Positions 3,970 to 30,377 of a stretch of 30,377 nt of DNA are shown here, one piece after another (positions within the stretch are counted from its first letter, which is position 1; the number at the start of each line of letters is the position of its first letter). The position numbers were made by a program, and so were the translations under genes. The notes under the pieces were generated by a model. It had not been told where the DNA came from. It saw only the letters and a program-made list of their open reading frames with translations, and did no database searches. The stretch spans positions 1 to 30,377 of the IMG/VR virus record IMGVR_UViG_3300009422_000029; one strand, written 5' to 3'. This DNA is from a virus.

Positions 3970-4198
3970 AGCAGTTGAGGAACTTATCAAAGTAGCTAAA
4001 GAAGCTATTGTAGATTCAGGAGATGATATAACAGCTGATAGACTTAAGAATGCTGCTGCAACAAAAAAACTAGCTATATTCGATGCTTTTGAAATATTGA
4101 ATAGAATACAGGACGAAGAAGATATGTTAAACAATAAAACTAAAGAGGTTGTTGAAGAAACATCTTTTGGTGGATTTGCTGAAAGAAGATCTAAGTAA
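3923..4198 (+). CDS. Probable terminase small subunit
   Basis: A 91-residue helical protein directly before the large terminase, sharing the TAATG stop-start junction with it. Segments such as GHKAVEELIKVAKEAI, DITADRLKNAAATKKLAIFDAFEIL and the end GGFAERRSK match what I remember of small proteins before terL in crAss-like and marine Bacteroidota phages. Small terminase subunits recognise viral DNA and regulate the motor, but I see no clear helix-turn-helix, so the role rests on position and size. I chose the ATG at 3923 (A/T-rich leader ACAATTAAAT, 47-nt overlap with the preceding gene). An ATG at 3905 would add six residues and a 65-nt overlap. Confidence 0.65.
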   Translation: MNIKETKKSIIQAGHKAVEELIKVAKEAIVDSGDDITADRLKNAAATKKLAIFDAFEILNRIQDEEDMLNNKTKEVVEETSFGGFAERRSK

Positions 4199-6411
4199 TG
4201 TACAAGCAAACTTTATTTAAGGTTGTAGAACCTATAAAAATAAATACCATAAAAAGACTTAATAAGTCTAAAAAATGGAAATATGGTTATAACAAAGAAC
4301 ATGACGTTGTTGTTATAAGCAAGACGGGTGAAATAGGTGAGATATATGAAATACAAAATTTTAAAATAGCTTTACCTAAATTAACAAGCCCTCATAAGTT
4401 TAGTGAAAATAAATGGGAAGTAACTGAGTATCCTAAAGAACTTAAAAGAATAAAAACAATATTTGATTGGAAGAATTATCCAGATGATTTCAAGAAAAAA
4501 TATATAGACTACATAGAAAATGAGTTCAAAAAAAGAGATGAAGGTTTTTGGTACATTAACAAAGGTGTTCCTACTTACATTACTGGCACTCATTACATGT
4601 ACCTGCAGTGGTCCAAGATTGATGTTGGGCAACCAGACTTTAGAGAAGCAAATAGATTATTCTACATATTCTGGGAAGCTTGCAAAGCAGATACAAGATG
4701 TTACGGAATGTGCTACCTTAAAAACAGACGTTCAGGATTCTCTTTTATGGCTTCTGGAGAAACAGTCAACCAAGCCACAATATCATCTGATGCTAGATTT
4801 GGTATCTTATCAAAGTCAGGACCAGATGCTAAAAAAATGTTTACCGACAAGGTCGTACCAATATCCATCAACTACCCTTTCTTTTTCAAACCAATACAAG
4901 ACGGTATGGACCGTCCAAAAACAGAACTTGCCTATAGAGTACCTGCGAGTAAACTTACAAGACGAAGTATTGTTAGCTCTGAAAAACCAGAAGAATTAGA
5001 AGGTCTTGATACAACTATAGATTGGAAAAACACAGGTGACAACAGTTACGATGGTGAAAAACTAAAGCTCTTAGTGCATGATGAGTCAGGTAAGTGGGAA
5101 AGACCTAATAATATATTAAACAACTGGAGAGTCACAAAAACAACATTAAGATTAGGTTCTAGGATTATAGGTAAATGTATGATGGGATCAACATCAAACG
5201 CCTTAGATAAAGGTGGTGATAATTTTAAGAAACTATACAGAAACTCAGATGTTACAAAAAGAAACCGCAATGGACAGACTAGCTCAGGATTATATAGTTT
5301 GTTCATACCTATGGAATGGAACTACGAAGGATTCATTGACTCTAATGGCATACCTGTATTCGACACACCCGAGCAAGAAAGTTTTGGACCGCATGGTGAA
5401 TCTATAAACAGTGGCATATTAGAGCACTGGCAAAATGAAGTTGATGGTTTAAAAGAAGATGGAGATGCTTTAAACGAGTTCTACAGACAATTTCCTAGAA
5501 CAGAAGAACACGCGTTTAGGGACGAAACTAAAAACAGTATATTTAATTTAGCAAAAATATACGAACAAATAGATTTTAACGAGGATCTTAATAATGATTC
5601 TCAAGTAACAGTTGGTAGCTTTCAATGGGTTAATGGTATAAAAGATTCAACAGTAATGTTTTATCCAAATCCAGCTGGTAGATTTAAAATTAGCTGGGTA
5701 CCACCTGGAAATAGGCAAAACGCTAGTATAGTTAAAAATGGTATGAGATACCCAGGCAACGAACACATGGGTGCTTTTGGTTGTGATAGTTATGACATAT
5801 CAGGAACTGTTGATGGTAAAGGTTCTAACGGAGCTTTACACGGGTTAACAAAGTTTAGTATGGAAGATTGTCCACCAAACCAATTTTTTTTAGAATACGT
5901 AGCAAGACCACAAACCGCTGAGATATTCTTTGAAGATGTTTTAATGGCTTTAGTTTTTTACGGTATGCCATTATTAGCTGAAAACAATAAGCCTCGTTTA
6001 TTATATTATTTAAGAAGACGTGGATATAGAGGTTACTCAATGAATAGGCCTGATAGAATTTGGAATAAATTATCAGTTGCTGAAAAAGAAGTAGGTGGAA
6101 TACCAAACTCAAGTGAAGATATTAAGCAAGCACACGCTGCTGCTATTGAAATGTATATACAAGATCATGTTGGAATGAAGTCTGATAATACATATGGAAC
6201 ATGTTATTTTAACGAAACGTTGCAAGACTGGGCAAAGTTTGACATTAATAATCGTACAAAGTTTGATGCGGCTATTAGTTCAGGTTTAGCTGTTATGGCT
6301 TGTAACAGACATTTGTACAGAGCAAACCCAATTATGAAAAAAGAAAAATTAAACTTAAGCATAGCTAAATACGGACAATCCGGTATGCAATCAAAACTAA
6401 TAGAAAATTAA
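4198..6411 (+). CDS. terL: Terminase large subunit (packaging ATPase and nuclease)
   Basis: The 737-residue protein has the two-part TerL layout. The ATPase half contains a deviant Walker A, YLKNRRSGFSF (residues 173-183), of the Arg-rich type seen in many Bacteroidota and marine phages. It also has a Walker B, LLVHDE (291-296), with E296 as probable catalytic glutamate, followed by a GSTSN segment that fits the coupling motif. The nuclease half (RNase H-like) shows GAFGCDSYDISG with D530 and D533, and a distal Asp in KFDAAISSGLAVMA (D690), the expected metal ligands. The protein powers DNA entry through the portal and cuts concatemers. Its length is typical of crAss-like relatives. It starts on the last base of the small-terminase stop codon and is followed after 1 nt by the portal gene. 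Confidence 0.9.
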   Translation: MYKQTLFKVVEPIKINTIKRLNKSKKWKYGYNKEHDVVVISKTGEIGEIYEIQNFKIALPKLTSPHKFSENKWEVTEYPKELKRIKTIFDWKNYPDDFKKKYIDYIENEFKKRDEGFWYINKGVPTYITGTHYMYLQWSKIDVGQPDFREANRLFYIFWEACKADTRCYGMCYLKNRRSGFSFMASGETVNQATISSDARFGILSKSGPDAKKMFTDKVVPISINYPFFFKPIQDGMDRPKTELAYRVPASKLTRRSIVSSEKPEELEGLDTTIDWKNTGDNSYDGEKLKLLVHDESGKWERPNNILNNWRVTKTTLRLGSRIIGKCMMGSTSNALDKGGDNFKKLYRNSDVTKRNRNGQTSSGLYSLFIPMEWNYEGFIDSNGIPVFDTPEQESFGPHGESINSGILEHWQNEVDGLKEDGDALNEFYRQFPRTEEHAFRDETKNSIFNLAKIYEQIDFNEDLNNDSQVTVGSFQWVNGIKDSTVMFYPNPAGRFKISWVPPGNRQNASIVKNGMRYPGNEHMGAFGCDSYDISGTVDGKGSNGALHGLTKFSMEDCPPNQFFLEYVARPQTAEIFFEDVLMALVFYGMPLLAENNKPRLLYYLRRRGYRGYSMNRPDRIWNKLSVAEKEVGGIPNSSEDIKQAHAAAIEMYIQDHVGMKSDNTYGTCYFNETLQDWAKFDINNRTKFDAAISSGLAVMACNRHLYRANPIMKKEKLNLSIAKYGQSGMQSKLIEN

Positions 6412-6412
6412 T

Positions 6413-8836
6413 ATGGCTGAGTCAGTTGTAAAAGGTTATTTTCCGAGTCAAGTTGTACCTGACGCAGAGAAATTAAGTGCTGAGTATGGATTACAAGTAG
6501 GTAAGGCCATTGAGTACGAGTGGTTTGATGGATCTACGTCTAATCAAAGATACAATCAGCACCAAGCTGAGTTTCATAAACTAAGGCTTTATGCTAGAGG
6601 TGAACAACCTATTCAAAAATACAAAGATGAATTATCTGTAAACGGTGACTTAAGCTACTTAAACTTAGATTGGAAACCAGTACCTGTTGTTCCTAAATTT
6701 GTAGATATAGTAGTTAACGGTATATCAGAAAGATCATTTGATATAAAATGTTACTCTCAAGATCCTTACGGTATAAGTAAGAGAACAAAGTACATGGAAT
6801 CTATAATGAGAGACATGCAGACACAAGAGTTAAGTGCTTTTGCACAAGAAGCTTTTGGCATTGCATTATTTGAAAACGCTCCAGACAAACTACCTGACAG
6901 TCAAGAAGAGTTAGATCTTCATATGCAATTAAGTTACAAGCAAGGTATAGAGTTAGCTGAAGAGCAAGCTATAAACGTATTGCTTAAAGGTAACAGATAT
7001 GATCTAACAAAAAGAAGAGTTAACTACGATCTAGCTACAATAGGTATAGGCTGCGTGAAAAATACTTTTACACAATCAGAAGGAGTTAAAGTTGAATATG
7101 TGGATCCAGCTAATATAGTTTATTCTTATACAGAAGATCCAGACTTTCAAGATATATATTACGTAGGTGAAATAAAAACAATACCTATAAACGAACTTAA
7201 AAAAGAATTTCCAAATCTAACTGATGAGGATTTAAAATCTATACAAAGTCAAAGCATACATCAGAATAGTTACTCTAGCAATAGATACAACTCTTCTTAT
7301 TACGACGATAAAAACCAGATTCAAGTTTTATATTTTAACTACAAAACCTATATGAACGAGGTTTACAAGGTTAAAGAAACTTCAACTGGTGCAGAAAAAA
7401 TAATACTAAGAGACGATACATTTGATCCACCTATAAATGAAATGACAGGTAACTTTGGTAAAATATCAAGGTCATTAGAAGTTTTATATGAAGGTTGTTT
7501 AATTTTAGGAACAGACTACTTATTAAAGTGGGAGTTAGCTAAAAACATGATGAGACCTAAAAGCGACTATAGTAAAGTTAAAATGAACTACGCTATTAAT
7601 GCTCCTAGAATGTATAAGGGTAGAATTGATTCATTAGTAAAACGTATAACAGGTTTTGCTGACATGATACAGTTGACTCATTTAAAACTACAACAAGTAA
7701 TGTCTAGAATGGTACCAGACGGTGTTTATTTAGACGCTGATGGTTTAGCTGAGGTTGATTTAGGCAATGGAACTAATTATAATCCACAAGAAGCGTTAAA
7801 TATGTTCTTTCAGACGGGATCTATAATAGGTAGATCTTTTACTTCTGAAGGAGACATGAACCCAGGTAAAGTACCTATTCAAGAAATACAATCAGGATCT
7901 GGTGGTCAAAAAATACAAACTTTAATAACCAACTACAACTATTACATGCAAATGATAAGAGATGTAACTGGTTTAAACGAAGCTAGAGATGGTAGCACTC
8001 CTGATAGTAGAGCGTTAGTTGGGGTTCAAAAGCTAGCTGCTGCTAACTCAAACACGGCTACTAGACATATATTAAATTCTGGTTTAGCTTTGACACAAGA
8101 GCTTGCGGAAGGTTTGTCTCTTAGAATATCTGATATATTAGAGTTTTCACCAACAAAAGAAGCTTTTATACAAAAAATAGGTAATCAAAATGTTGGAGTG
8201 CTAGAAGATATAGCTAAATTACATTTACATGATTTTGGAATATTCATAGAGCTTACTCCTGATGAAGAACAAAAAGCTATATTAGAACAAAACATACAAG
8301 TTGCTATAGCTCAAGGATTAATTGATCTAGAAGATGCTATTGATCTTAGAGAGTTAAAAAATATAAAACTTGCAAATCAACTGTTAAAAATACGTAGAAA
8401 GAAAAAGCAAGAAAGAGAGCAGAAGATGCAACAAGAAAATATGCAGGCTCAAGCACAGGCAAATGCACAAGCTCAACAAGTTGCAGCTCAAGCTGAGGTT
8501 CAAAAAGCTCAACAACTGTTTCAAATAGAAACACAGATGGAGCAAATGAAAGGTGAAATAGCTAATCAAAAAATGCAAACAGAAGCAATGCTAAAGAAAG
8601 AGTTAATGGCATTGGAGTTTCAGTTTAACATGGAATTAAAAAATGCTGAGGTTGATAATGCTAAGGGAAAAGAACAATACAAAGAAGATCGTAAAGACGA
8701 GAGAACAAAAATACAGGCTAGTCAACAAAGTGAGTTGATAAACCAAAGACAGAACGACGCGCCACCAAAGAAATTTGAGTCATCTGGAAATGATAATATG
8801 AGTGGTTTTGACTTAGGTTCGTTTGGACCTATGTAA
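6413..8836 (+). CDS. Portal protein
   Basis: An 807-residue protein immediately after terL. The N-terminal block around residues 57-107 (LYARGEQPIQKYKDEL, then GDLSYLNLDWKPVPVVPKFVD) is the signature I associate with portals of crAss-like and related Bacteroidota phages. The middle holds portal-type core segments such as YVDPANIVYSYTEDPDFQD and a region near residues 520-560 (MIRDVTGLNEARDGSTPDSRALVGVQKL) that fits the stem/tunnel helices. Residues about 658-776 are a long Gln/Ala/Met/Lys-rich coiled coil, comparable to a portal barrel that projects into the head. Twelve copies would form the DNA channel at one capsid vertex, binding terminase and then the neck. The start is ATG-GCT with the usual A/T leader, 1 nt after terL. 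Confidence 0.9.
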   Translation: MAESVVKGYFPSQVVPDAEKLSAEYGLQVGKAIEYEWFDGSTSNQRYNQHQAEFHKLRLYARGEQPIQKYKDELSVNGDLSYLNLDWKPVPVVPKFVDIVVNGISERSFDIKCYSQDPYGISKRTKYMESIMRDMQTQELSAFAQEAFGIALFENAPDKLPDSQEELDLHMQLSYKQGIELAEEQAINVLLKGNRYDLTKRRVNYDLATIGIGCVKNTFTQSEGVKVEYVDPANIVYSYTEDPDFQDIYYVGEIKTIPINELKKEFPNLTDEDLKSIQSQSIHQNSYSSNRYNSSYYDDKNQIQVLYFNYKTYMNEVYKVKETSTGAEKIILRDDTFDPPINEMTGNFGKISRSLEVLYEGCLILGTDYLLKWELAKNMMRPKSDYSKVKMNYAINAPRMYKGRIDSLVKRITGFADMIQLTHLKLQQVMSRMVPDGVYLDADGLAEVDLGNGTNYNPQEALNMFFQTGSIIGRSFTSEGDMNPGKVPIQEIQSGSGGQKIQTLITNYNYYMQMIRDVTGLNEARDGSTPDSRALVGVQKLAAANSNTATRHILNSGLALTQELAEGLSLRISDILEFSPTKEAFIQKIGNQNVGVLEDIAKLHLHDFGIFIELTPDEEQKAILEQNIQVAIAQGLIDLEDAIDLRELKNIKLANQLLKIRRKKKQEREQKMQQENMQAQAQANAQAQQVAAQAEVQKAQQLFQIETQMEQMKGEIANQKMQTEAMLKKELMALEFQFNMELKNAEVDNAKGKEQYKEDRKDERTKIQASQQSELINQRQNDAPPKKFESSGNDNMSGFDLGSFGPM

Positions 8837-10039: not shown

Positions 10040-11500
10040 ATGGCTTTAGCTGGAACTGGCGCTGAGTTATCACATGTGGTACCTCGCCCAAACAAACTTG
10101 CATTTGACAATAACTATTTGTCAATTGCTGATAATGATTTTAACTTTGCTAAGCAATTCTTACCAGAAGTTTACGAGAAAGAAGTAGAAAGATACGGTAA
10201 CCGTACTATCTCTGGTTTCTTAAGAATGGTTGGTGCTGAAATGCCAATGGCTTCTGATCAAGTAGTTTGGTCTGAACAAGGTAGAATTCACGTAGCATCT
10301 AATAACGCTACAATCGCAAACACAAACGCAACAAGCGATACAATTACACTAGTTGCTGATCCCGTTGGAAATGGTGACGGATTAACTGCTGCTCAACAAT
10401 GGGCGTTATATTCTGTAGGTGACACTTTAGTTGTTTCTCAAGGGAATTTAACTGTAAAAGCAAGAGTACAAAGCAAACCTGCTGGAACTGTTACTTTAGT
10501 AGTATCTGCTTACGATTTTGCTGGTATTGTACTAGGTGGTGCTAATGATGCTGGATTTTCTGCTGCTGCAGTAAAACTATTCATCTTTGGTTCTGAATAC
10601 GGAAAAGGAACAGACAACGCGTCTCAACAATCTGTAGATTCTCCATTCACTAAATTTGATAACAAACCTATCATTATGAAAGGTAAGTATGAAATTAGTG
10701 GATCTGATACTGCACAAATTGGATGGGTTGAAGTTGCTACTGAAGCTGGTGCTTCTGGGTACCTTTGGTATTTAAAATCTGAAAGTGAAACTAGAATTAG
10801 ATTTGAAGATAAATTAGAGATGGCAATGATTGAAGCTGAAAAAGCTGTTGCTGCATCTGGATTATCTGCTACTTTTACTGGATCTGAAGGATTATTTGCT
10901 GCTATTGAATCAAGAGGATTAGTATATAACAATCAAGGATTTGCTAACGCTTGCGTTGGTGGTGGAATTGATGAGTTTGATGCTATCTTACAAGAGCTTG
11001 ATAAGCAAGGAGCTATCGAAGAGAACATGATGTTCTTAGATAGATCTACTGCTTTAAGCATTGACAAAATGTTAGCTAATCAAAATTCTTACGGAGCTGG
11101 TGGTACATCTTACGGTGTATTTGACAATTCTGAGGATATGGCTTTAAATTTAGGTTTCTCTGGATTTAGACGTGGATCTTACGATTTCTACAAGTCTGAC
11201 TGGAAATACTTAAACGATGCTACTACTCGTGGATTAATAGCTGACGTAGAAGGTGTTATTGTACCAGCTGGTACTTCAACAGTATATGACCAATCAATGG
11301 GGAAAAATATTTCAAGACCATTCTTACACATCCGTTACAGAGCTTCTGAAGCAGATGATAGAAAAATGAAATCTTGGATTACAGGATCTGTTGGTGGAAG
11401 TTATACTTCTGACTTAGATAGCATGACTGTAAACTTCTTATCAGAAAGATGTTTATGTGTACAAGCTGCTAACAACTTCGTATTATTGAAAAAATCATAA
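10040..11500 (+). CDS. Major capsid protein (probably HK97 fold)
   Basis: A 486-residue protein after the scaffold-like gene. The block at residues 40-85 (FLPEVYEKEVERYGNRTISG, FLRMVGAEMPMASDQVVWSE, QGRIHV) matches what I recall of major capsid proteins from Bacteroidota and marine podoviruses. The middle (about 100-190) is beta-rich and may be an inserted surface domain. Residues 250-300 (SETRIRFEDKLEMAMIEAEKAVAASG) look like the spine helix, and 310-370 like P-domain strands. Codon use fits high expression: Arg is partly CGT, unlike the AGA-dominated neighbours, and TTC, AAC and TAC are frequent. A strong hairpin follows directly, so the transcript level is likely set apart from downstream genes. 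The start is ATG-GCT after an A-rich leader. Confidence 0.87.
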   Translation: MALAGTGAELSHVVPRPNKLAFDNNYLSIADNDFNFAKQFLPEVYEKEVERYGNRTISGFLRMVGAEMPMASDQVVWSEQGRIHVASNNATIANTNATSDTITLVADPVGNGDGLTAAQQWALYSVGDTLVVSQGNLTVKARVQSKPAGTVTLVVSAYDFAGIVLGGANDAGFSAAAVKLFIFGSEYGKGTDNASQQSVDSPFTKFDNKPIIMKGKYEISGSDTAQIGWVEVATEAGASGYLWYLKSESETRIRFEDKLEMAMIEAEKAVAASGLSATFTGSEGLFAAIESRGLVYNNQGFANACVGGGIDEFDAILQELDKQGAIEENMMFLDRSTALSIDKMLANQNSYGAGGTSYGVFDNSEDMALNLGFSGFRRGSYDFYKSDWKYLNDATTRGLIADVEGVIVPAGTSTVYDQSMGKNISRPFLHIRYRASEADDRKMKSWITGSVGGSYTSDLDSMTVNFLSERCLCVQAANNFVLLKKS

Positions 11501-24235: not shown

Positions 24236-27200
24236 ATGAAAAGCACACCATTAAAGCAAGCTTCAGCCGCTTTAGAAAGTCAGACTTATAACTATAAAGG
24301 TAAATCATTTACTAGACAAGAGATAGACGATGCTAGAGGTAAAACATCTTTTGATGATTACTTGTCTAAAAACAGTATAGATCTAGTACCTGAATCTGAG
24401 TTTAACACAACTTCCTTAGAAAAATACTCTGAGGAAAATTTTCAAAACGATCCTGCAAATGTGGAGACCAGCCCAGGATCGAATCAAGACGATACGGTTT
24501 CCAGTGGGGAAGATATTTCTTTGGATATGATAGTGTTTCCAGGGAATGTAGAATACGCAAGTAAAGATATAGTAGCTAACATGAAAGATTTTGGCAGCGA
24601 TAATCATATTATGATTACTGGTAGAGCCAGCACTGCTTTGTATGACTTTGAAAATGGTCAGGCTTATAAAGTAAAAGACAATGTAACAGATGATCAGCTA
24701 ATAGAACAGTATTTAAAAGTACACCCAAAAGCTTATTTAGAAACTTACGAAGATTTTGTAGGCGCCGGTGGTGGTGAAGTAGGAGACGAAGCTGCAGTTG
24801 CAAACATTGATGTTATGAACATGGAGCTTGATCTAGAAATTAAAGAAATAAATACTAATCAAGACGAAAAGTTAGAAGAGATATTACCTCTTTTCTTGAA
24901 TAGAGACCAAGATCCACTTACTGGTGAAACCCTAGAAGGATACTCTGATGTAGTAGGTAATGACATGAAAACGTTGTTTTCTATGGACGAAGAAGAAGGA
25001 GTAGATTTTTTAGAAGATTTATTTGTAGGAACTAATATAAAATTTGAAGAATCAACAGCGCCTGGTCAAGCTTTTGGAAAAGGAGGAGATCACACCTCTG
25101 GTTATAATGTTATTAAGGTAAGTATACCTGGAGGCAGGTATGATAGAGATGGAGATCCAAATAAAGGACGTGGTAAAGGTGCTGGACACATATATTTAGA
25201 TTTTAACACAGATGTTAATTGGGGTGATGGGGACAAAGTTGCTAACAGCGCTAATATTAAAATATTAAGAGAATTTATAGAACAAAACATTGAGTTTATA
25301 AAAGTTGACAAAAGCTTTAGACAAAAAAAAGAAGATGTAAAGCTACAGTCAATAAAACTTAAAAATCAAGTATTTGAATCACCTGGTCATATTTTAGAGG
25401 AAAAGTTATTAAAAGAAAAGCTTAACAGAAAAAACTTACAAGACGCCAACTCCGAGGCGAGTAAATTATTCGAAGCACCTGTATACGGTCATCATGGTCA
25501 TACGGATCTTACGGGCAATAAGGTAATGTCTAGATCAGAAGGAGGAGCTTTACACGCGGCTAGACAAGCTCAAGTAAAAGATCTTCAAAAAAGGTTTACA
25601 ACAGAGGAATTACAAACCCTAATAACCAACAACAAGGTTGATAATTTAGAGCAATTAGCCGAGGTGCTTGTTTTAGAAAGCTACAAAACAAACGAAGTAT
25701 CAGGTCTTAGAGTAAAAAACTTAAACTTAGCCATAGGAGCTGTTGAGGGTCAACTTTCTGGTAGAGATGAACAAAAAGCAATTCAAAGCATTATATTTTC
25801 AGGTGATAGGTTTCAGAGTATTGAAAACAAAGATCTTATTTACAACTCTGAACAGAAAACAAATGAGATAACTGCTATTGCAACTGGAGATGTTGAAACG
25901 ATGGAGTTATTGCAAAAATACGCTGTTCAAGGTGGGTTATCATTAGAAGAAATGGAACGCTTAAAGCAAGCTTATATAGACAACGGTATAATGTTAAACC
26001 CTGGAAGCGATGATTACGTTGAACAATATCAACAAAATATTGATGAAAACGGAATCGAAACCTCTATGGTTTATGATAGTGAAACTGCTAAAAATGCTAA
26101 AGAGCTTTATAGTAAATTAGGTATAAACACCATGGTCTACAATAAACTTCTTAACGAAGAAAATGAGCTTAGACTGCAAGCTGCAAAACAAAACAACGAC
26201 CTTAGCCTTACAATGAGTGTAGCCGCTGCCAATTATGATTTAGGAGAAAAATACCTAGCTAACGTAGGTTTAGGTGCTACAGATATTGTTATGGGTGCTG
26301 GTAATTTACTGTTCAATGTAGCAACCCTTGGTACTCAAATGGACGAAGACACTTTTTTTACATCATATCAAAAAACAGTAACTAGAACTAGAAACAATTT
26401 TGTTAGAGATGTTTCTTTTGACGACGCTTTTAGTAGTTTAGATAATTTTGTTGGGTTTGCGTTTCAAGAGATTTCAAATCAAGCACCTATAATAGCAACT
26501 ATGGTCGCTACTGGTGGGTATGGTGGTTTAGTCATAGGTGTTCAATCAGCAGGTCAAAAGCAAATGGATTTAAACCAACAGCTTTTACTAGGTGATCCAA
26601 GCACAGAAGGTTATGACGAAGACTTTTTACATTATAGTATGTGGATGAAAAGTATAGGTTATGGATTAGCTGAAGGTGGTTTTGCTCATTTAACAACGGT
26701 ACCTATCATTGCTAGAAGTAAAAAAATATGGAGATCTAGTTCTAAAGATTTAGATTTACTAGATAATACTTTTAAATCTTTTGCTAAAAAAGAATCTGAG
26801 TTTCTTATAACAGCTCCTTTAGCTGAAATGACAGGTGAGATTCTTACGATAGGTGCTCAAAATTTTATTGATGATAGAGATTTTACAGAAGGTATGGATC
26901 ACGCTGGTTTTAGTGGGTTTGCTTTTGGTTTAGGTTTTTCTGTTATTCCTTTTATGAGAGGAGCTTACAACTCTAAGTTCTCTACTTATAACGATTACTC
27001 AGATATAAGAAATGATCAAAAAAAATTACAAGAGCTTCAGACACAGTACAACGTTATAAAAGACAAAAGAACAAAAGCTGCTAAAGCTCTAGAAAAACAA
27101 ATATCAACTACTAGCGTAGATATATTTAATAAGATAGAAAGAGTAGAAAAAGTAATAAAAAATAGACTTAGAGGCGGTGGTGGTCAAGCTATTGTTAACG

Positions 27201-30200
27201 CAAGACAAAGACAAGTACAACTTCAAAACGAAGCTAATGACATTTTAAATATTCCAGATTCTGAAATGTCTAGAGAAACAAAGCAAAAAGCCTTAGCTAG
27301 CTTGCAAGCAACTTTTAATGCAAACAAAGCTATTATAGACAACGCTTTATCTCAAGGATCTACACAAAAGCTCAAAACAGAATTTGATGCCTTAGAAATA
27401 AACGACAAAGAATCTTACAATAATTATATAGCTAGAGCCAAAGACGTGGTTGATAGCAACAAAAACGTAGAAGACAGTGACAATAACGTGCAATCAGTTG
27501 CTTATGAGTTTTTTTTAGAAGATAAAATAAAAAAATCTAACAAAAAAACAATGTCTAATGGTTTAAGTCTTACAGAGGTTGAAACAAAAGACGATGCTAA
27601 AGATTATGCGGATAATCTTTTAGAAACAGAGCAAATTAACGACGACCAGCACAAGGCTATAATAAAAGGTATTGATGAGAACGCTGACGGTTTTGCAATT
27701 CCAAACACGGACGTGACTGTGGCAATTGTTGAAAATCAAATTTTAAACCAACAAGAATTTGTCGGAACTCATGAAATAGGTCATCAAGCTTACTGGAAAA
27801 TATTTGGCTCTGATTTTAATTTTGACCCTATATCTAGTCAGCTTTTAGATTCTATGAAAAAATTAGATAAAGGTACTTACGATGAATTTATGAAAGACAC
27901 GCGTATATATCTTGAAGACAATGTCACTGTTGATCCTAAAGAGGTTATATCTGTGTTCTTAGAGTATGTAGCGGCTAATAAATTTACTACTAAGGAAAAA
28001 GCGTCTGGTTTAGCTGGTTTGTTTGGTTCAATGACGCAAAAAAGCTTAGAAAGCTATCATGACTTTGACTTTGCAGGCGAGGCTGATATGTATAACTTTG
28101 CTGTTGGATTAGGTAAAAAAATATCAAGTGGTACTTTAACTATGGAAGATATTTCTAAAGCTAAAGAAAACAAAACTACAAATGAAGTTGTTGCTAAAAA
28201 TAAAACAGCACCTGGTGATATTGCTCTATCGGCTAGTACAAACCTAGACGGCATGCTAAATGATTTTGCTAACCAAAAAGCAAATGTTGATAGACGTAAA
28301 AAAGGGTTACCACTACTACCTAAAGGCTTTGAGTTAAAACCAGAAAGAAAAAGACAATACATAAGAGGCTTTGTTAACGACATGCTTTCTAGAGATGTTA
28401 ACGGCAATATTGTTAACGATTTTATGAAATCAAAACTAGTTGCTGAATCTAATACAATGGGTCCTTATATAACTACTATATCTAATAGAATATGGAACGG
28501 CTTAGACCCTATGAACAGAGAGGGTCAAACTCTAGACACGTGGAAGCAATTAGTTGCTACAGAGTTATCTACAATGATACAGCAAGAGTATTTAAAGCCA
28601 AACAAAGATGGTGTAACTAAATATCAAGACTTAGATAAGTTTGTAAGAAACAGAGGTTATTTTAGAGTATTTGAACTAGCTACTAACACGTTTAAGCAAA
28701 CGGCAGCTAGCTTAGGCTTAGAAACAGTTGGGAATGTTGCTGACACAGAATTAGATTTAGATTCTCAAAAAGCAGATTTAGATGCTGCTAAGAAATTAAG
28801 AGACAGTAAGGTTGATTTTGTAAACAAAGTTAAATTTATAGACAGCAATAACAAAGCTGTAAACCTACCGAACAGTGTAGTTAGTGCAATAACTAACAAC
28901 ATTGTAAAAACATTTAAAACTAAAAAATTCAAAAACAAACTAGGTACTAATAAATTTAGAACAGAGTTAGCTAATGAGTACGGTGGTAGTATAGGTACTA
29001 TGTTTAAAAATGTTATGCAACGTGGTGAAAACTTTGATAACAGTATACAACTAACAAATGAAGACAAAAGAGCTAATTACTCTCAGTTTTTATCAGAAAA
29101 CTTTGATCTAATATACGATCTACCTATAGATGTGTTAAATAAGAAATACCCTTTCTTAGTTAATAATACAGGTGTTAGAATGAACGCTGAGCAAATAAGA
29201 GGCCATAACGATGCTATAGATAAAGGATTAATTGTTGGTAAAAAAATTACTGACATAAAATCTGGACCTTTTATATTTGAAAAAGTTAAAGATAAGAAAA
29301 AAGCTAAAATAGATTATTTAAACTATTTTGAAGGAGCTAACATGGCTGCTAATACAAAAGGAGCTAGACAGCTTTCTTTAGCAGACACCATGGGTCAAGA
29401 GTCTGCTTACGACATGCAGGGAGACGTTCTTAAAGACGCTGGTTTTAAAACAGAAGCTTTTATACAAGAATTAAATAAAAACGTAGGTAGAGTAGCTTTT
29501 AGCTCAGTGCGTAGTTTAACACCTGCTAAACGAAATTCTTTTTACGCTAGTATACCTGGTCTTGTTTCAAAGCTAACCCCTGGCTCAACAAATTGGGGTA
29601 GTCAAGAAACAATACAAAAAACATTTAAGTCTATACTAACTGACTTATTACCTGATTTTACTCCTGGAGAAATTTCTAAGATATCTACTGAGCTAGCTAA
29701 ATACGCTATGAGGTTTAATTTAATAGATCCGGTTGTTAAGAAAGACGCAAAAGACAGTGGTTATTTAGAAGAATACTTTGAGAATAATGTTTTAGAAGCA
29801 GAGAACAAAGCTTTAAAAGCGTTTTTAAACCTAGAAGAATCTATTGTTCAAGGATTTGAAAATGACATTAGAATACAAAAACATCGAGCTATACCTTTAG
29901 ATTACATAAGACAGTTTGATAATGATCCCGTAAAACAAAGACAAGCTATCATTGACGTCATACAAAATAGCTCAATGTACGCAGGTGCTGGTAAAATTGG
30001 AGATGGTAGATATCAAGTTTTTGCAGGTATAAGTGATTTTTACAAGCATTTAAATACGTTACCGGGTGTTGAAATAGATATAGCTAATTCAAGAAAGAAA
30101 TTTGTTAAAACTATCAATAGCGTTCAAAAATGGACAGGAGATTCTTGGTTAAAAATTGATGGTAAAGCTATAAACCCAAGCGAAGTAACCTTAATACCAG

Positions 30201-30377
30201 AAACAAGTGAATCTGGTTTAAAAGACAATGATTTTGCGGGAAGATTAAAACAAGCTAACAACGCAAGAAGATACGTTAAAGACATGGTCAAAATGGTTGT
30301 TGACGGAAACTACGACAACATGGATATAGCTATGTTAATGAAACAGTTAGACTCTCAAATGAGTGCTCCTTTAAAGA
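24236..30377 (+). CDS. Giant internal virion protein with zinc-metallopeptidase motif (partial)
   Basis: The reading frame is open from the ATG at 24236 to the window edge, over 2047 codons with no stop, so the 3' end is missing. The start MKSTPLKQ repeats the KSPLKQ motif of the 216-aa ejection protein. Hydrophobic stretches lie near residues 678-700, 738-775 and 888-912 (for example QAPIIATMVATGGYGGLVIG). A charged coiled coil follows (about 925-1075). At 1155-1250 a strand (GFAIPNTDVTVAIVENQ) precedes THEIGHQAYWKIFG, an HExxH zinc-binding motif (H1179, E1180, H1183), with possible third ligands E1236 or E1243 in EVISVFLEYVAA. The remaining 800 residues are unassigned. Size and place fit a T7 gp16-like or polyvalent ejection protein. 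The peptidase could cut a host or virion protein; this is inference. Confidence 0.82.
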   Translation, partial: MKSTPLKQASAALESQTYNYKGKSFTRQEIDDARGKTSFDDYLSKNSIDLVPESEFNTTSLEKYSEENFQNDPANVETSPGSNQDDTVSSGEDISLDMIVFPGNVEYASKDIVANMKDFGSDNHIMITGRASTALYDFENGQAYKVKDNVTDDQLIEQYLKVHPKAYLETYEDFVGAGGGEVGDEAAVANIDVMNMELDLEIKEINTNQDEKLEEILPLFLNRDQDPLTGETLEGYSDVVGNDMKTLFSMDEEEGVDFLEDLFVGTNIKFEESTAPGQAFGKGGDHTSGYNVIKVSIPGGRYDRDGDPNKGRGKGAGHIYLDFNTDVNWGDGDKVANSANIKILREFIEQNIEFIKVDKSFRQKKEDVKLQSIKLKNQVFESPGHILEEKLLKEKLNRKNLQDANSEASKLFEAPVYGHHGHTDLTGNKVMSRSEGGALHAARQAQVKDLQKRFTTEELQTLITNNKVDNLEQLAEVLVLESYKTNEVSGLRVKNLNLAIGAVEGQLSGRDEQKAIQSIIFSGDRFQSIENKDLIYNSEQKTNEITAIATGDVETMELLQKYAVQGGLSLEEMERLKQAYIDNGIMLNPGSDDYVEQYQQNIDENGIETSMVYDSETAKNAKELYSKLGINTMVYNKLLNEENELRLQAAKQNNDLSLTMSVAAANYDLGEKYLANVGLGATDIVMGAGNLLFNVATLGTQMDEDTFFTSYQKTVTRTRNNFVRDVSFDDAFSSLDNFVGFAFQEISNQAPIIATMVATGGYGGLVIGVQSAGQKQMDLNQQLLLGDPSTEGYDEDFLHYSMWMKSIGYGLAEGGFAHLTTVPIIARSKKIWRSSSKDLDLLDNTFKSFAKKESEFLITAPLAEMTGEILTIGAQNFIDDRDFTEGMDHAGFSGFAFGLGFSVIPFMRGAYNSKFSTYNDYSDIRNDQKKLQELQTQYNVIKDKRTKAAKALEKQISTTSVDIFNKIERVEKVIKNRLRGGGGQAIVNARQRQVQLQNEANDILNIPDSEMSRETKQKALASLQATFNANKAIIDNALSQGSTQKLKTEFDALEINDKESYNNYIARAKDVVDSNKNVEDSDNNVQSVAYEFFLEDKIKKSNKKTMSNGLSLTEVETKDDAKDYADNLLETEQINDDQHKAIIKGIDENADGFAIPNTDVTVAIVENQILNQQEFVGTHEIGHQAYWKIFGSDFNFDPISSQLLDSMKKLDKGTYDEFMKDTRIYLEDNVTVDPKEVISVFLEYVAANKFTTKEKASGLAGLFGSMTQKSLESYHDFDFAGEADMYNFAVGLGKKISSGTLTMEDISKAKENKTTNEVVAKNKTAPGDIALSASTNLDGMLNDFANQKANVDRRKKGLPLLPKGFELKPERKRQYIRGFVNDMLSRDVNGNIVNDFMKSKLVAESNTMGPYITTISNRIWNGLDPMNREGQTLDTWKQLVATELSTMIQQEYLKPNKDGVTKYQDLDKFVRNRGYFRVFELATNTFKQTAASLGLETVGNVADTELDLDSQKADLDAAKKLRDSKVDFVNKVKFIDSNNKAVNLPNSVVSAITNNIVKTFKTKKFKNKLGTNKFRTELANEYGGSIGTMFKNVMQRGENFDNSIQLTNEDKRANYSQFLSENFDLIYDLPIDVLNKKYPFLVNNTGVRMNAEQIRGHNDAIDKGLIVGKKITDIKSGPFIFEKVKDKKKAKIDYLNYFEGANMAANTKGARQLSLADTMGQESAYDMQGDVLKDAGFKTEAFIQELNKNVGRVAFSSVRSLTPAKRNSFYASIPGLVSKLTPGSTNWGSQETIQKTFKSILTDLLPDFTPGEISKISTELAKYAMRFNLIDPVVKKDAKDSGYLEEYFENNVLEAENKALKAFLNLEESIVQGFENDIRIQKHRAIPLDYIRQFDNDPVKQRQAIIDVIQNSSMYAGAGKIGDGRYQVFAGISDFYKHLNTLPGVEIDIANSRKKFVKTINSVQKWTGDSWLKIDGKAINPSEVTLIPETSESGLKDNDFAGRLKQANNARRYVKDMVKMVVDGNYDNMDIAMLMKQLDSQMSAPLK

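Follow-up and report, generated by a model that had tools for sequence, protein, structure and literature searches.

Zincin MPTases are the commonest domain of polyvalent proteins, residues 2130-2448 of the N4 vRNAP and P1 DdrB included, and both autoprocessing and effector roles have been proposed for them (Iyer et al. 2017, PMC5512222). Of these, P1 DdrB undergoes processing ahead of packaging (PMC5512222). The N4 vRNAP, which among virion proteins with a zincin has been studied best, is packaged full length (PMC5512222), so the presence of a zincin does not in itself imply cleavage. A 2025 structure of the N4 vRNAP shows the HExxH in subdomain C1 of the full-length enzyme, a single chain of 383 kDa, and the sections of that report available to us assign no protease role to C1 and describe the CTD as inhibiting the polymerase (PMC12633501). 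Zincins in large phage virion proteins are already known; the domain described here would add to them a sequence family that is near-universal in one phage group. A literature search for a crAss-like precedent of the zincin found none. The predicted domain described below resembles the polyvalent MPTases (N4 vRNAP C1, P1 DdrB) in joining an HExxH zincin to a Glu on the next helix, and in being set, alongside further enzymatic domains, in a very large protein that is probably delivered by the virion. Unlike them, it belongs to a different phage family and has no match to Pfam MPTase-PolyVal (PF18818), a model that matched none of 39 records at an E-value of 1.

The window, that is, the whole stretch of DNA analysed, is the 30,377-base virus record IMGVR_UViG_3300009422_000029. 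Its genes include those for the terminase large subunit (4198..6411, + strand; match to phrog_6681), the portal protein (6413..8836, +; phrog_6547) and a structural protein of the virion that is probably the major capsid protein (10040..11500, +; phrog_13704). Upstream of the terminase, positions 1437-2861 encode a 474-aa collagen-like protein of Gly-X-Y repeats. The named terminases closest to that of the window are those of an uncultured Manatee Spring virus and then of Elemovirus, Pachyviridae and Pervagoviridae phages of flavobacteria; the phage is placed by the sequence of its terminase large subunit near Pachyviridae, Pervagoviridae and Elemovirus. Giants of the kind described here occur in a large family of uncultured, mostly marine relatives. 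The MAG bins that contain relatives (L190-L199) are assigned to Aliivibrio, Maricaulis, Woesearchaeota, Ilumatobacteraceae, Flavobacteriaceae and others, Bacteroidota included, a mixture that is probably due to binning contamination and is too broad for a host to be assigned from the bins.

The last gene of the window is a giant open reading frame of 2047 aa (24236..30376, +), which runs off the contig end, so that only relatives show the C-terminal third of the protein, among them L002, a full-length giant of 3098 aa that is 49% identical to the window giant in the best segment and keeps its HEIGH motif. The full-length relatives range from 2251 to 3853 aa. The window giant had no match in Pfam or PHROGs, and because tblastn searches of named phages with the giant and with its C-terminal region were also empty, relatives were taken from IMG/VR. 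The family was built with a profile of the C-terminal region that its members share, which recovered 535 confirmed IMG/VR relatives; 80 loci were retained from these. Neither the C-terminal nor an N-terminal profile matched the cultured relatives.

An HExxH motif had been read at residues 1179-1183 of the frame that starts at 24236, and HEIGH is present exactly there (27770..27784, +), supplying two predicted metal ligands and a predicted general base. HExxH occurs in 76 of 76 giants longer than 2000 aa from the 80 loci, in exactly one copy in 75 of them, as against 0.9% of sequences after residue shuffling, which rules out a chance origin of the motif. This count is unbiased, since the loci were picked by their C-terminal region rather than by HExxH, and long giants fetched via the terminase carry the motif in nearly all cases. 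Across an alignment of 68 sequences, which are 10-47% identical to the window, no columns are invariant except H1179, E1180, H1183 and E1236, a set that reads as the gluzincin pattern. Since HExxH was required of all 68 rows, the independent evidence lies in E1236, the predicted third metal ligand (27941..27943, +; 68/68), in E1243, a probable second-shell acid (27962..27964, +; E/D in 63/68), in Y1225, possibly the transition-state tyrosine (27908..27910, +; Tyr in 45/68), and in G1152 (59/68). The conservation that the original prediction expected of H1179, E1180, H1183 and E1236/E1243 is therefore complete for the first four residues and nearly so for the fifth. The giant of the Manatee Spring virus (L003, MW202828) has two HEFGH motifs, at residues 1615 and 2500, the second of which aligns with the window zincin (hhalign probability 61).

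The alignment, an AlphaFold2 (AF2) model and structural re-ranking delimit a predicted gluzincin-type zincin peptidase domain at residues 1057-1313 (27404..28174, +). The AF2 model, built on the 68-sequence alignment, has a pLDDT of 85.7 and a pTM of 0.85, and in it residues 1152-1154 and 1161-1164 form strands, HExxH sits on a helix that spans 1176-1190, and the Glu on one that spans 1234-1246. These elements agree with the order read earlier from the letters, namely a strand (GFAIPNTDVTVAIVE, residues 1152-1166), the HExxH helix and an acidic helix (EVISVFLEYVAA, residues 1236-1247). As in gluzincin clan MA(E), HExxH lies on a helix that follows an edge strand, and the invariant E1236, a putative ligand, lies on the following helix. 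Foldseek alone found no significant match to the model in the PDB and BFVD. After re-ranking with VIA-align, all of the first 14 rows are M34-type zincins that span most of the model, those of PPEP-1 and of the lethal factor protease domain covering the HExxH and Glu helices; their Z scores are 4.8-6.6, a Z below 8 being no proof of fold membership, with an rmsd of 4.3-7.7 over 139-186 residues and a sequence identity of 7-14%. Other zincins (M30, M13, collagenase G) stand lower in the list, at Z 3.0-3.5, among short helical matches. That one functional class should head the re-ranked list is difficult to account for unless the model has the zincin fold, and the structural side of the original prediction, a zincin-like fold whose helices carry the motifs as expected, is to that extent upheld. 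Judged on conservation and model together, the domain is very likely a gluzincin-type peptidase that is catalytically active, and we have high confidence in the assignment of an active peptidase to residues from about 1057 to 1313.

Sequence searches with the domain returned little. No relative of it emerged when PDB sequences were searched with a profile; Pfam found no family in the window, M34 (ATLF, PPEP) included, and ATLF appeared in only 2 of the 68 members, with a best E-value of 0.057. The sub-threshold Pfam matches of other members include the zincin families M91, M78 and ATLF among much noise, and the window has none. N4 gp50 aligns weakly with the window domain (hhalign probability 7, P 0.005), with the HExxH in the correct register. 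As far as sequence allows us to judge, the domain is a family that has no Pfam model and is near-universal in this phage group. The zincin would then be a near-universal, not an optional, part of the giant virion proteins of an abundant marine phage group, with at least 535 related stretches in IMG/VR and with cultured relatives.

Among the latter, Elemovirus gp18 (Flavobacterium phages) is like the window giant in its position after structural genes, in a homologous membrane block and in a homologous zincin, which in gp18 of the cultured phage elemoE aligns with that of the window at an hhalign probability of 96.4 and an E-value of 1.1e-9. In the elemo phages (host Flavobacterium sp. BAL314) gp18 is 3694 aa long and its motif is HEIFH, at 1543. 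Unlike the window family, elemoE gp18 has no match to the C-terminal profile and no strict form of the linker motif described below. The block in question, a helical membrane-like region at residues 659-916 (26210..26983, +), was delimited by a model and by homology to phi18:3 gp123, phi38:1 gp101 and elemoE gp18, and all four hydrophobic segments of the window giant fall within residues 677-907. A block profile made of uncultured relatives only, with phi18:3 gp123 excluded, matched elemoE gp18 (E 2e-33), phi38:1 gp101 (2e-32) and phi18:3 gp123 (3.9e-20), and no shuffled or reversed control is among the matches listed. The model of the block, a helical membrane-like bundle of moderate pLDDT (72.5), drew mostly unspecific membrane and helical proteins as structural rows, with no T7 or N4 ejection proteins among them. 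In the uncultured giants that have the block, HExxH follows it at a distance of 189-321 residues.

The giants of phi18:3 (gp123, Pachyviridae, 1935 aa) and phi38:1 (gp101, Pervagoviridae, 1691 aa) share the membrane block, the genomic position and a structural or virion annotation with the window giant; unlike it, they are shorter and lack HExxH. The gene for phi18:3 gp123 occupies the same genomic place as the giant, and its GenBank note cites virion MS/MS proteomics. The homology of residues 659-916 to this protein, together with synteny, supports the earlier description of the giant as an ejection-type virion protein. It very probably rides in the virion; we infer packaging strongly from these comparisons, and ejection with the DNA more weakly. 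The parallel once drawn with a lytic transglycosylase like that of T7 gp16 found no Pfam support in P0001 and P0002, although a divergent domain could escape Pfam, and the same two gave no Pfam match to a single-subunit RNA polymerase domain (N4-type vRNAP), the N4 RNAP being itself divergent.

Beyond the point at which the window ends, L002 carries HAD-like motifs (WDFDDTLAQT, LTARP, FADDA) at residues of about 2180-2340, which are kept in the C-terminal region of the family; the HAD-like assignment is by motifs, with no profile match behind it. With the zincin and these motifs, L002 is a very long protein that joins unrelated enzymatic domains, as polyvalent proteins do. The L098 giant has, from about residue 2259, a HAD-like motif and after it an insert with a P-loop, FVAGGAGSGKSNVIKQL, which resembles a zeta-toxin-type kinase, and the L094 giant has an insert at the same place.

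A short linker pattern, [ILVM]x[FY]S[KR], recurs in the giants and, counted outside masked domains (the zincin and the conserved C-terminal domain), is found 39 times downstream and never upstream of the zincin HExxH (p 7e-12); counted by 15 flank contexts, many of which may share ancestry, the downstream bias has a p of 7e-5. The strict form, [ILVM][QKRN][FY]S[KR], occurs 27 times in the giants against 4.0 expected, a 6.7-fold enrichment of a motif that was found post hoc, and shows no enrichment in 145 further long ORFs from these contigs (1 against 1.55); no more than 21 of 69 giants carry it. Copies within one protein tend to agree in the residue that precedes F/Y (11 pairs against 5.2, p 0.012; 46 against 24, p 0.0004, with the C-terminal domain included), and a control motif with T gave a p of 0.95 for the same agreement. 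Among giants L105-L184 the recurrent linker stands C-terminal of the zincin, as at residues 586, 1003 and 1456 of L167. In the lineage of the window, VAFS stands on either side of the HAD-like region in relatives, and again at residues 1753-1756 of the window giant (29492..29503, +), where it is a relaxed match to the pattern and a candidate cut site. Such linkers could be cut by the resident peptidase, or they could be ordinary linkers at module ends, or a module-border signal.

The data support a domain that is real, near-universal in its family, under strict selection on its catalytic residues and C-terminal of the membrane-like block. On this basis we propose that H1179, H1183 and E1236 would bind the metal, with E1180 as the general base, in a zincin that forms part of a polyvalent giant, which the virion would carry and eject along with its DNA. 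The main substrate may be the giant itself: the zincin would cut linkers between the modules C-terminal of itself, in head assembly or after ejection, and the cuts would separate the enzymatic cargo, the HAD-like domain among other modules, from the N-terminal part inserted in the membrane. Taken as a whole, this reading of a competent gluzincin in a packaged and ejected giant, mainly processing that giant, appears to us evenly balanced, and self-processing as the main role of the zincin a little less than that. A more specific version is doubtful, namely that the giant is a self-processing polyprotein whose zincin recognises hydrophobic-x-[FY]-S-[KR] (VAFS in the window lineage) and frees the C-terminal cargo, the cut sites co-evolving with their own peptidase. 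The constancy of the zincin amid varying flanking modules points to a substrate that is likewise constant, the giant itself being the simplest candidate, and the universality of the zincin in the long relatives suggests that it has an essential task, for instance to divide the giant into working pieces. In favour of self-processing also speak the confinement of the linker pattern to the side C-terminal of the zincin, the agreement of its copies within one protein and the precedent of P1 DdrB. Against self-processing count the giants of phi18:3 and phi38:1, which work without HExxH, the full-length packaging of the N4 vRNAP, and the strict linker's restriction to 21 of 69 giants and its absence from elemoE gp18 in spite of the zincin there.

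The same variable neighbourhood can be read in another way, as effector-like modules (the P-loop and other inserts) flank the zincin in relatives, zincins occur as effectors of conflict systems, and an effector role has been proposed for some polyvalent MPTases (Iyer et al., PMC5512222). The zincin might then be injected to cleave a conserved host protein of defence, transcription or the envelope right after entry. Effectors usually come and go, however, and a zincin found in 76 of 76 giants of highly divergent phages fits a constant viral substrate better than a host target, unless that target is universal; we consider this role unlikely. The position of HExxH after the block, and the helical membrane-like bundle that the block forms in its model, would suit a role in entry, in which the zincin locally opens the envelope or trims the membrane block for ejectosome assembly or cargo exit. 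We regard that as distinctly improbable, given that the cultured phi18:3 and phi38:1 retain the block but lack HExxH, and that HExxH gluzincins cut proteins, not peptidoglycan.

Least probable of the roles considered is a structural or regulatory fold, serving C-terminal packing or metal binding, with proteolysis minor or absent. This may hold for the N4 vRNAP C1, to which the available part of the 2025 report gives no protease role while describing polymerase inhibition by the CTD (PMC12633501), but in the present family E1180, needed for catalysis and not for the fold, is found in all members, and the motif has been lost in no giant longer than 2000 aa. The role of virion-borne metallopeptidases becomes directly testable in Elemovirus, with named predicted catalytic residues and candidate cut sites.

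The giant (24236) and the neighbouring product (22415) share with L172, L113 and L146 a short N-terminal motif, TPLKQ, SPLKQ or similar, which could be a packaging signal.
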